From: Phycisphaerales bacterium
Lineage (GTDB): Bacteria > Planctomycetota > Phycisphaerae > Phycisphaerales > UBA1924
Length of the DNA: 64,000 nucleotides
NCBI GenBank assembly: GCA_029260345.1
Contig: JAJDDK010000005.1
Span: 248,001 to 312,000, forward strand
Reading direction: 5' to 3'
Position 1 is the stretch's first letter. Each line of letters begins with the position of its first letter. The translations under genes were made by a program, and so were the position numbers. Positions 6,564-43,172 of the stretch are shown piece after piece. Under the pieces are notes generated by a model. That model did not search any database and was not told the DNA's origin. It was given only the letters and a program-made list of their open reading frames with translations.

Positions 6564-6585
6564 CCATCCTGAAGCAATGATCGTG

Positions 6586-6782: not shown

Positions 6783-6820
6783 CCCCTCACCCCGGCCCTT
6801 TCCCGGGGGAGAGGGAGGAG
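6783..6820. repeat. family C palindromic repeat (CCCTCACCCCGGCCC type)
   Basis: CCCCTCACCCCGGCCC followed by TTTCCC/GGGGGAGAGGGAGGAG, a GC-rich hairpin. Other copies of the same type are at 7435-7470 (inside the SDR gene), 15211-15251, 42697-42732 and 42938-42973. A sister form beginning CCCCTCATCCG is at 15045-15096, 42881-42933 and 43087-43140. Repeats of this general text are known from many GC-rich bacteria. Confidence 0.8.
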
Positions 6821-6846: not shown

Positions 6847-6865
6847 CACTGCTCAAGAGCAGTGG
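6847..6865. repeat. family A repeat, single copy
   Basis: CACTGCTCAAGAGCAGTGG, one arm pair of the family A dimer, lying 8 bases beyond the stop codon of the convergent SDR gene. It closes the 310-base stretch 6564-6873, which consists almost entirely of repeats and has no credible gene. Confidence 0.85.
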
Positions 6866-6873
6866 CACACGTC

Positions 6874-7722
6874 TTACGGATAGTCCTGCCGCGTCGGACG
6901 GATGACGACGTCGTTGATGTGCACGTGCGCCGGTTGCGATGCAATGAATGCGATCGTGCGTGCGACGTCGTTGGCTTCCAGCAGTGGCGCGAATTTCTCT
7001 TTGAATCCCTGCTGCAACTCATCGGTGTAGCCCGCGACGGCCTGAAACTCGGTTGAAACGATGCCGGGGCAGACGAGCGAGACGCGGATGCCTTTGGGGC
7101 CGAGTTCACGGCGCGCGCCTTCGGCGATGGCGCCGACTCCGAACTTCGTCGAGCCGTACATCGACGAAAACGGCGAAACGTGTTTACCCACGTTGGAGCC
7201 GAGAATGATGATGTCGCGGGCGCGGTCGGTCAATGACTCGCCACGTTGCAGCATGCGCTCGGCGGCGCTGCGCACCAGCATCGCCGCGGCGGTCAGGTTC
7301 GTGCGAATCATCTCATCCCACTGGGCCGTGTCCGAAGTCATCACACTGCCAGCGAGGCCGCGCCCGGCGTTGACGACGACCAGATCAACACCTTGACAAG
7401 TGGCGCCGCTCTCCGAGCGGTGCGTTGGTCGGGCCCCCTCACCCCGGCCTTCTCCCGAGGGGAGAGGGGAAAGAGTGTTCGCCACATTCAGCATGCCGTC
7501 GATGACGGATTGCTCCGCACAGTCCCCTGCAACCGCGGCAGCGCGCCCGCCGTCTGCTTCAATGGCCTTCACCAGCGCATCGAGGCGCTCCTTCCGCCGC
7601 GCGTTCACAACAACCGCGGCGCCCAGTGATGCAAGCTCGCGGGCGCACGACTCGCCGATTCCGGCGGAAGCGCCGGTGACGACGGACGTGCGGCCCGCGA
7701 GAGGTTGGTCTAGAGTCTTCAT
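6874..7722 (-). CDS. short-chain dehydrogenase/reductase with repeat-encoded insertion
   Basis: Classical SDR oxidoreductase, expected to be a cytoplasmic NAD(P)H-dependent alcohol/ketone reductase. The cofactor motif TGASAGIG is at residues 16-23, NAG at 118-120, catalytic S176, and YGSTK with Y189 and K193. Residues about 83-110, just before the VDLVVVNAG strand, are foreign to the family. This stretch begins TLSPLPSGEGRGEGA and is the translation of a family C palindromic repeat (7435-7470) plus flanking bases. The frame stays open through it, so the protein may be functional with an extra surface loop of about 25 residues. The gene faces the repeat cluster 6564-6873. Substrate unknown. 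Confidence 0.9.
   Translation of the reverse strand: MKTLDQPLAGRTSVVTGASAGIGESCARELASLGAAVVVNARRKERLDALVKAIEADGGRAAAVAGDCAEQSVIDGMLNVANTLSPLPSGEGRGEGARPTHRSESGATCQGVDLVVVNAGRGLAGSVMTSDTAQWDEMIRTNLTAAAMLVRSAAERMLQRGESLTDRARDIIILGSNVGKHVSPFSSMYGSTKFGVGAIAEGARRELGPKGIRVSLVCPGIVSTEFQAVAGYTDELQQGFKEKFAPLLEANDVARTIAFIASQPAHVHINDVVIRPTRQDYP
7435..7470. repeat. family C repeat inside the SDR coding sequence
   Basis: CCCCTCACCCCGGCC then TTCTCCCGAGGGGAGAGGGG: same text as the intergenic copies at 6783-6820 and 15211-15251, here in frame in a gene. An additional small inverted repeat (CCGCTC/GAGCGG at about 7406-7420) lies beside it and probably belongs to the same insertion. Confidence 0.85.
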
Positions 7723-15044: not shown

Positions 15045-15096
15045 CCTTCTCCCATCGGGAGAAGGTGGCAACGCGCAGCGTTGACGGATGAGGGGA
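15045..15096. repeat. family C' repeat (CCTTCTCCC/GGGAGAAGG ... GATGAGGGG)
   Basis: Hairpin CCTTCTCCCATCGGGAGAAGG followed by TGGCAACGCGCAGCGTTGAC and GATGAGGGG. Same composition, in the opposite orientation, as 42881-42933; 43087-43140 is a third relative. Confidence 0.8.
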
Positions 15097-15210: not shown

Positions 15211-15251
15211 ACCCCCTCACCCCGGCCCTCTCCCGGGGGAGAGGGAGGAGG
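15211..15251. repeat. family C repeat
   Basis: CCCCCTCACCCCGGCCC then TCTCCCGGGGGAGAGGGAGG, nearly identical to 6783-6820, 4.4 kb... 8.4 kb away on the other side of the sigma/kinase and defence genes. Confidence 0.85.
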
Positions 15252-40673: not shown

Positions 40674-42008
40674 ATGAGGGTGCGCAAGACTTGGTTATTT
40701 TCTCTGAGCGCTGCTGCGGCGGTGACGGCAGGCTCGAACGCTTCGGATTTTCTTGGTTTCTTTACAGCGTCGCCTATTCCGTCCGGCGGCGATAATCACA
40801 CCATCGAAGCGGCTGATCTGAACGGCGATGGCCTCGTTGATCTGGTGCTGCCGAATTTCGAAGTGGATTTCGACAGCGTGTCAGTTGTGCTCAATACGAG
40901 GGGCGGAACATTCGCCGCGCCAATACTCGTTGATCTGGGCGCTCGGCCGTGGGCAGCTCGATCAGCCGATCTTGATTTGGATGGCGATCTCGATATCTGC
41001 GTGAATGCGACGGATGGCATGCTCGTCACCCGTGTTCATGTCTTGCTGAACGATGGCGATGCAAATTTCACGCCCGGCGGCGCATTTCTCATCGCCGGTC
41101 AGGCAAGACAATTGCGCCTCGCAGACTTGAATGGTGACGGCGTGATAGATGCGGTGACCGTGAACCACGGCTCCAACAACATATCAGTACTTATGGGTGA
41201 CGGCGCAGGAGGGTTTTCGCCGCAATCGGTCTACCTTGCCGGGCATGTGCCGGCCGATGCGACGATCGGTGATATCAACATGGATGGCGCGCCTGATTTG
41301 GTCGTCGCTAATGCCTTTAGTAAAGACGTTTCAATCTTTTTGAATGATGGGAGTGGTGAGTTTCCTGTAGAGCAAATCACCACCTTCCAACTGCCACCGC
41401 CGCCAGGTTCAACATTTGTTCACAGCCCGAACTCGGTTGTCATTCAAGATTTCAACAACGACGGTGTCAACGATCTCATCATCGCACATGGTGGCCCTTG
41501 GTGGGCAATATTATTTGGAGTGAAGGATGGCGGACTTGGCGAACCCATTCTCATTGCAGCGCCCGCCGGCATGGTGGATGTGATTGCGCCTGATCTTGAC
41601 GAAGATGGCGATCTTGACCTGATGTTCACACAGCCGCTCGATCGATCGCTTGCCGTCTGGCTGAACGATGGGGATGGAAACTTTGAACTTGTGCAGGAGA
41701 TGCCGACGCTCATCGAGCCGCTCGACATCGCGATTGCCGATTTTGATCACGATGGCGACCTCGACGCAGCCGTCGCGCATGCGCTTGCAGAAGAGCTTGG
41801 CCTTCACTTCCAAGCCAGCGGACCGTTTGCGCCGGACTTCAATGGCGACGGGGTGGTCAACGGAATTGATTTGGCGCACCTGCTTGCGCAATGGGGCGGG
41901 CCAGGCGATGCAGACGTCAATCGATCGGGCATTGTTGATGGAGTTGATCTGACGGCAGTTTTGTTTGAGTGGGGTCCGATCGGCGATAAGCGGTTCACGA
42001 CTCGCTGA
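40674..42008 (+). CDS. secreted FG-GAP/VCBS repeat protein with dockerin-like C-terminus
   Basis: 444 residues. Start at 40674 chosen because it gives the signal peptide VRKTWLFSLSAAAAVTAGSNA and has GGAG upstream; an upstream GTG frame adds a non-signal extension. Seven or so D.NGDG..D repeats (AADLNGDGLVDLVLP, LADLNGDGVIDAVTV, IQDFNNDGVNDLIIA) form a beta-propeller. The C-terminus has two dockerin-like loops, DFNGDGVVNGIDLAHLLAQW and a second built on DVNRSGIVDGVDLT. Same architecture as 7751-9373, probably extracellular. Its last 14 bases overlap the end of the convergent rdgB. Confidence 0.85.
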   Translation: MRVRKTWLFSLSAAAAVTAGSNASDFLGFFTASPIPSGGDNHTIEAADLNGDGLVDLVLPNFEVDFDSVSVVLNTRGGTFAAPILVDLGARPWAARSADLDLDGDLDICVNATDGMLVTRVHVLLNDGDANFTPGGAFLIAGQARQLRLADLNGDGVIDAVTVNHGSNNISVLMGDGAGGFSPQSVYLAGHVPADATIGDINMDGAPDLVVANAFSKDVSIFLNDGSGEFPVEQITTFQLPPPPGSTFVHSPNSVVIQDFNNDGVNDLIIAHGGPWWAILFGVKDGGLGEPILIAAPAGMVDVIAPDLDEDGDLDLMFTQPLDRSLAVWLNDGDGNFELVQEMPTLIEPLDIAIADFDHDGDLDAAVAHALAEELGLHFQASGPFAPDFNGDGVVNGIDLAHLLAQWGGPGDADVNRSGIVDGVDLTAVLFEWGPIGDKRFTTR

Positions 42009-42672
42009 TTAAATCACGAAGCGTTGAAGCAATCGCCCGCGTCGCGTCGCCGCGGTGGCTGCGCGCGTTTTTTTCTTCTGGTGGCAGTTCGGCGCTGGTG
42101 CGACCGTCGGGGAGTTCGAGCAGGGGGTCGTAGCCGAAGCCGTTGTCGCCTCGGGGGGTGTCGGTGATGACGCCTTCGAACACGCCGCGACTGGTGGCGA
42201 GGATGGCGCCGTCGGGGGCGGCGAGGCACATGGCGCAGACGAAGCGCGCGGTGCGTTTTGCCTTTGGAACGTTCGCGAGTTCGCGCAGGAGTTTGTCGTT
42301 GTTGGCGGTGTCGCGCGCGGCGCGGTCGCCTTTAGCGCCGGCGTAGCGGGCGCTGCGCACGCCCGGAGCGCCATTGAGCGCATCGACTTCGAGGCCGGAG
42401 TCGTCGGCGAGACAAGGGCGGCCGGTGTGAGCCGCGTAGTAGCGCGCTTTGATCGCGGCGTTGCCTTCGAAGGTGTCCGCGTCTTCGATGGGTTCGGGGA
42501 GGGTGGAGGCGGCCGCCGCGCCCACGGGCGAGACGCCAGTGCCACCGTCTGTGTTCGATTCGGGGAGCCGCACGTCACCAAGCCCGATCGCTCGCACACC
42601 CAGCGGCGTGAGGATCGCGCTGATCTCTTCGAGCTTGTGTGGATTGGTGGTGGCGATGAGGAGGTCAATCAT
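41995..42672 (-). CDS. rdgB: RdgB/HAM1 dITP/XTP pyrophosphatase with repeat-encoded insertion
   Basis: Removes ITP, dITP and XTP from nucleotide pools. 225 residues from the ATG at 42672: LLIATTNPHKLEEI (start signature), DTFEGNAAIKARYYA, PCLADDSGLEVDALNGAPGVRSARYAG (catalytic Asp), and DNGFGYDPLL. Family members are about 195-205 residues. The excess lies at residues 40-57, between the VRLPE strand and PEPIEDADTFEGNA. This insertion reads TDGGTGVSPVGAAAAS and is the translation of a palindromic repeat core (42521-42546). The gene borders the repeat cluster 42673-43206, so two events of repeat spread are probably linked. Catalytic residues are intact. Confidence 0.93.
   Translation of the reverse strand: MIDLLIATTNPHKLEEISAILTPLGVRAIGLGDVRLPESNTDGGTGVSPVGAAAASTLPEPIEDADTFEGNAAIKARYYAAHTGRPCLADDSGLEVDALNGAPGVRSARYAGAKGDRAARDTANNDKLLRELANVPKAKRTARFVCAMCLAAPDGAILATSRGVFEGVITDTPRGDNGFGYDPLLELPDGRTSAELPPEEKNARSHRGDATRAIASTLRDLISES
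42521..42546. repeat. family E-type palindrome inside rdgB
   Basis: CCCACGGGCGAGACGCCAG followed by TGCCACC: arms ACGGGCG and CGCCAGT around AGA, imperfect. The intergenic element at 31013-31031 has the same GGGCGAGACG core when read on the opposite strand. Confidence 0.65.
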
Positions 42673-42696
42673 TGAGAGGAGACTAGTGGATTGGGT

Positions 42697-42732
42697 CTCA
42701 TCCCTCTCCCATTGGGAGAGGCTAGGTGAGGG
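42697..42732. repeat. family C repeat (diverged)
   Basis: CTCATCCCTCTCCCATTGGG then AGAGGCTAGGTGAGGG; hairpin CCTCTCCC/GGGAGAGG. First element of the 534-base gene-free stretch 42673-43206, which consists of repeats. Confidence 0.7.
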
Positions 42733-42753
42733 CTTTTGAGTGAGCATTTCAAA

Positions 42754-42860
42754 GGTGCCGTGGTCTTTTCCGTCCACGGAAAAGGCCGCGGTTCCATGTT
42801 CAAATGCGAAGAACGCGTGGCCTTGTCTGAGGACAGACAAGACCACGGCACCATTGAAAT
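42754..42860. repeat. family B palindromic repeat, dimer copy
   Basis: GGTGCCGTGGTCTTTTCC...GGAAAAGGCCGCGG (42754-42791) and GCGTGGCCTTGTCTGAGGAC...CAAGACCACGGCACC (42815-42853), spaced like the dimer at 6667-6759. Arms differ between the two halves but remain complementary within each half, a sign that the hairpin itself is conserved. Confidence 0.8.
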
Positions 42861-42880
42861 GTATGACTTTGCACCGGTCG

Positions 42881-42973
42881 CCCCTCATCCGTCAACGCTG
42901 GCGCGTTGCCACCTTCTCCCGGGGGGAGAAGGGTTTGCTCCCTCTCCTTCGGGAGAGGGCCGGGGTGAGGGGG
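42881..42973. repeat. family C' and C repeats, back to back
   Basis: CCCCTCATCCGTCAACGCTG ... CACCTTCTCCCGGGGGGAG (42881-42933), then CCCTCTCCTTCGGGAGAGG ... GGGGTGAGGGGG (42938-42973). Both forms are found singly elsewhere in the window. Confidence 0.8.
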
Positions 42974-43086: not shown

Positions 43087-43172
43087 GCCCCTCATCCGAT
43101 CCGCCTGCGGCGGACAACCTTCTCCCGGGGGGAGAAGGGGCTCGCAACCATGCCTACGCAGTCGTGGGCACG
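43087..43172. repeat. family C' repeat followed by family D palindrome
   Basis: GCCCCTCATCCGATCCGCC ... CCTTCTCCCGGGGGGAGAAG (43087-43140), then CATGCCTACGCAGTCGTGGG (43149-43172), the degenerate second copy of the family D palindrome at 15324-15347. It ends about 35 bases beyond the nusG stop codon. Confidence 0.7.

Follow-up and report, generated by a model that had tools for sequence, protein, structure and literature searches.

The question raised by this locus is whether a short palindrome that is scattered between the genes of a genome can enter the coding sequence of an enzyme and be translated there as part of the protein. The window studied here is a stretch of 64,000 nucleotides from a member of the Phycisphaerales, and it contains a gene for an SDR enzyme with such a palindrome inside it. 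We believe the extra loop of this enzyme is very probably a translated REP-like mosaic, mobile or formerly mobile, which is tolerated when it is in frame, free of stop codons and situated in a surface loop. The features on which the argument rests are collected in Table 1.

Table 1. Features of the SDR locus and related palindromes in the window
Feature	Position	Strand	Remarks
SDR gene, 282 aa, intact	6874..7722	-	TGASAGIG, NAG, S176/Y189/K193; fold match 2jah (predicted fold), Z 32.8
In-frame insert, residues 83-110 (TLSPLPSGEGRGEGARPTHRSESGATCQ), 84 nt	7393..7476	-	net ~+24 aa over orthologues; pLDDT <50 at 92-109
D6 palindrome in SDR (CCCCTCACCCCGGCCYTCTCCC...GGGAGARGG)	7435..7468	+	minus-strand reading PLPSGEGRGEG
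D1b palindrome in SDR (ACGCACCGCTCGGAGAGCGGCGCCAC)	7400..7425	-	reading THRSESGA(T)
Intergenic D6 copy, immediately downstream of SDR gene	6783..6820	+	
Intergenic D6 copy	15213..15250	+	
Intergenic D6 copy (core)	42951..42972 (G000:C5:290951-290972)	-	
D1 palindrome CACTGCTCAAGAGCAGTGGCAC	6847..6868	+	family that brackets a RAYT gene at another locus

The first-pass annotation claimed that a palindrome lies in frame within this gene and that the SDR motifs around it are intact, and both statements hold. The reading frame is open without interruption, and the D6 segment is about 90-94% identical to many other sites in the genome (94% over 34 bp, best E 2.5e-8). The glycine-rich motif and the catalytic serine, tyrosine and lysine are all preserved, and with the predicted Rossmann fold they are what defines a classical SDR; the Pfam domain, adh_short, is broken into two stretches. 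The extent and composition of the insert need revision. The annotation had placed it at 7435-7470, where a palindrome does lie, at 7435-7468, but the full insert runs from 7393 to 7476. Its palindromic origin stands and the idea of a single palindrome does not, for a second family contributes at 7400-7425. The SDR insert is a mosaic of two palindromes from different families, D6 and D1b.

Residues 83-110 are absent from 19 of 19 orthologues in the same taxonomic family. They are also absent from all 18 further orthologues found by a separate contig scan, which come from sequences labelled as Phycisphaerales, as other Planctomycetota, as Omnitrophota and, in one case, as Azospirillum; this set may overlap the first. 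The check proposed with the annotation, a search for the same loop in orthologues without repeats, was run on both sets and found no such orthologue, so the claim of extra residues is unrefuted. The stretch from helix C to strand 4 does vary in length, being longer in a few orthologues by a few to about 12 unrelated residues. The relatives searched included no genome of the same genus.

An AlphaFold2 model of the SDR, built from a 19-sequence input, has a mean pLDDT of 83.5. Residues 92-109, which fall below 50, lie between a helix (71-83) and a strand (114-117). Compared with clavulanic acid dehydrogenase (2jah), with the low-confidence stretches of the model omitted, it aligns over 243 residues with an rmsd of 2.1. 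The SDR fold is thus predicted to be intact, with the insert as a low-confidence loop from helix C to strand 4. In a Rossmann fold the cofactor site is at one end of the sheet, and the loop preceding strand 4 is at the other. This position, away from the cofactor, would be compatible with tolerance of an insert, and the enzyme presumably retains its activity.

The palindromes themselves are easy to find elsewhere. The 22-bp core of D6 has 31 copies in the genome at 0-1 mismatch, a count that leaves out three weaker matches with three mismatches, against 0 for a reversed control. With up to 3 mismatches allowed, the D1b pattern ACGCACNGCTCNNAGAGCNGNGCCAC has 31 matches and its control has 1, and a pattern search finds 52 copies of a third family, T2. 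All three families are dispersed through the same genome, and the annotation was right that the palindrome is repeated between genes (Table 1). One could argue that the SDR loop is an artefact, either of a chimeric assembly or of a chance likeness between a GC-rich loop and the repeat, and the genome is indeed a draft in 8 contigs. The repeat matches of 34 bp at 94% (E ~1e-8), set against zero matches in the control, together with the recurrence in several independent genes and in other genomes, leave this reading with almost no probability in our opinion. Chance resemblance and assembly error were rejected on the matches, the control and the recurrence in other genes.

That recurrence is extensive. 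Each D6 copy was checked against likely coding ORFs, which were then compared with Pfam and solved structures. In-frame palindromes occur in unrelated conserved ORFs, namely SDR, MutS, RarA (RarA/MgsA), BioF, ThiF (ThiF/MoeB) and NadA, and in each of them the Pfam domain is interrupted at the insert. The clusters in the last five are longer than that of the SDR, at about 45-96 extra residues each. MutS has an insert of 66 aa (residues 497-562) that is absent in 23 of 23 relatives with a match. RarA has about 70 residues between aligned blocks as against about 26 in E. coli. BioF has two D6 copies, and two of its blocks that almost adjoin in 1bs0 are separated by about 62 extra residues. Compared with 1zud, ThiF is longer by about 96 residues at one place and by about 80 at another; the two inserts are composed of D6, T2, D1b and further hairpins in a single frame throughout, and D1b occurs twice in ThiF and also in MutS in the same frame as in the SDR. 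NadA aligns to 4p3x on either side of a stretch of about 65-70 residues that is rich in palindromes. Five or six more proteins probably carry in-frame palindromes, and the evidence is less complete for ThiD2-ThiE, Lnt, QueG, DUF58, an amidohydrolase and, in the window, RdgB. Counting from the searched patterns and the fetched stretches rather than from a full gene census, about 5 of 31 D6 copies, about 5 of 52 T2 copies and up to 9 of 31 D1b copies lie inside such genes. The annotation's suggestion that a planctomycete genome can host palindromes within its proteins is strengthened by these conserved genes. Several long ORFs over repeats (L036, L059, L057, L053 and similar) were discarded, being either spurious or N-terminal extensions that are not real; Pfam gives no match for L036, L059 and L057.

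A skeptic might say that the insert-bearing enzyme genes are inactive alleles of recent date that are turning into pseudogenes, and would point to the MutS insert, which falls inside the ATPase domain. We find this very unlikely, since every frame is intact and the SDR has kept its catalytic motifs. In a tree of the same-family set the SDR branch has a length of 0.469, the sixth longest of 20, which is mid-range and thus gives no sign of decay. The search of this genome matched no further MutS gene, and several genes would have been hit simultaneously.

The frames in which the repeats are read differ between families. Nearly all noncoding copies of D6 are free of stops in five of six frames, and all five D6 copies inside genes (four genes) are read in the same one, as PLPxGEGRGEG or a close variant. 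By simple counting the chance of four genes agreeing among five frames is about 0.008, a figure that presumes independent genes and equally likely frames. For D1b at least three frames are in use, which rules out a strict one-frame rule across all families. The sequences of T2 that we inspected have just one usable frame in the sense direction with the commonest inner stem, and this accounts for the uniform T2 peptide.

Relatives tell a similar story. The D6 core is found in 17 of 41 genomes, counting that of the window. A genome from another family of the same order, G036, contains a dispersed unit of 135 bp made of two inverted palindromes and a variable spacer, with 35 long matches in the stretches sampled. 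This unit lies within at least five conserved proteins. Six ORFs, of which five encode a CopA-type ATPase, a PfkB kinase, a pyridine-nucleotide oxidoreductase, a flavin amine oxidoreductase and an alpha/beta hydrolase, all read it in the same frame, and outside those genes four frames are commonly open. The use of one frame in 6 of 6 ORFs therefore exceeds what avoidance of stops would lead one to expect. Palindromes read in the GEGRGEG frame also occur in MnmG and DnaE of G036 and in the isocitrate dehydrogenase of another relative, G001.

One reading of this bias is that palindrome-coded loops have been domesticated; they might serve as interaction loops, for instance, or form hairpins in the mRNA at which the ribosome pauses once a folding unit is made and before the next begins. 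Several inserts directly precede a core strand and form strong mRNA hairpins, which fits the idea. However, the family, length and place of the inserts all differ, and the orthologues manage without any. When folded by itself, the SDR insert does no better than shuffled sequence (z -0.15), its hairpin being weak, and selection against harmful peptides can also yield a frame bias. We regard domestication as unlikely, and near-neutral, selfish maintenance of the inserts seems to us the better account of a translated mosaic.

The transposase genes bear on how the palindromes are copied. Three Y1-type transposase (Y1_Tnp) genes were found in this genome, which is 96% complete. One is of RAYT type, with HVHVL and YIHANP motifs, at G000:C6:148451-149107 (L186:2952-3608) between inverted D1 palindromes, and it looks like a typical REPtron. 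The other two are flanked by unrelated repeats; the RAYT on contig C5 was ruled out as a mobilizer of D6, since another repeat lies in its flanks. None of the three genes is a RAYT bracketed by D6, D1b or T2. D1b is similar to D1 in both stem and tail, so cross-mobilization of D1b is plausible. Some of the families have probably been transposed by RAYTs, and copying through repair or slippage instead of transposition is conceivable. We infer a scenario in which several short palindrome families spread through the genome, probably by transposition, with D1 bracketing the RAYT-type transposase, and copies would occasionally insert into genes. Those that kept the frame, brought no stop and fell in a surface loop would be tolerated and give rise to extra, probably disordered, protein segments. 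D6 and D1b would jointly occupy the helix C to strand 4 loop of the SDR in this way, at the end of the sheet far from the active site, and would be translated with the rest of the enzyme.

The repeat family RPE of Rickettsia is the classical case of in-frame palindromes, and a comparison by features shows how close the present case comes. Dispersed palindromes lie in frame in unrelated conserved proteins and are missing from orthologues in both, and the 135-bp dimer of G036, which codes for about 46 aa in one frame, resembles RPE particularly well. The differences are the planctomycete host, the use of several short families per insert and a RAYT gene linked to one family. The Rickettsia case has been restated in a 2024 review (PMC10969869). 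The annotation held that the phenomenon is known mainly from Rickettsia, and this does not stand, since tagged REPs inside the ORFs of known proteins were catalogued in many phyla by Di Nocera and colleagues in 2013 (PMC3733652), with hosts that include Opitutus terrae, Thauera, Thioalkalivibrio, Xanthomonas and Stenotrophomonas. Those REPs occur singly or in clusters of up to 43-82 aa and often in DNA repair genes, as do the palindromes here in MutS, RarA and the relative's DnaE. They carry GTAG or CGTC tags, whereas the D6 and D1b units have neither tag at the end of the stem-loop as that paper defines it, and the two inserts of ThiF, at about 96 and 80 aa, draw on at least three families. 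REP/RAYT systems (REPtrons, BIMEs, REPINs) likewise have short palindromes in high copy and in inverted pairs, as here with the transposase bracketed by D1, but the protein-borne families D6, T2 and D1b were not found beside a RAYT in this genome. No report of protein-coding palindromes in Planctomycetes turned up in the literature searched, which left most subscription journals out of reach.

What we describe is the same phenomenon as RPE and intragenic REPs. It stands apart in that the families are untagged, that several of them are combined within a single protein, that the inserts are longer, and that the literature searched held no report for this lineage. A broader proposition is a serious possibility, though one we lean slightly against: that across the Phycisphaerales and their kin untagged palindromes have time and again added length to conserved and probably essential proteins, in a selected frame and through multi-family mosaics, so that selfish noncoding repeats account for a measurable share of the growth of the proteome. 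With many genes, several families, relatives that lack the inserts and a measurable choice of frame, this is a dense natural experiment in how selfish noncoding DNA becomes protein. It is also a warning for annotation, because LPLPPGEGRGEG or PSPxGRR...DEG peptides within the proteins of planctomycetes represent translated repeats and should not be taken for domains.

Some smaller observations concern the window and its repeats. Its RdgB-like gene (41998-42888, minus strand) has at 42496-42555 what may be a second in-frame insert within the window, read GGTGVSPVG, and the GC-rich repeat of that gene apparently also occurs in the BioF, DUF58 and amidohydrolase genes. Copies of D1 are frequent in the window (for example at 6585, 6847, 14986, 15273 and 51001). 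Strict D1 was not found in any verified gene in the stretches examined, whereas the variant D1b is often inside genes; stop codons apparently do not explain this. T2, GGGAGAAGG...GGATGAGG, lies at 15057-15093, 42883-42920 and 43090-43126 and at 49 other sites in the genome. Its inner stem is highly variable yet nearly always a perfect palindrome (CATCGC/GCGATG, CCGCC/GGCGG, CATCCCGAC/GTCGGGATG), and this variation is compensatory change within a dispersed repeat. Another repeat, CCGAACCGCGCCCGTNAGGAAGCGGT, was seen as 10 distinct sequences in the stretches examined, and it is read in one frame as DPNRAREEAV in ThiF, in MutS (as a variant) and in an amidohydrolase.
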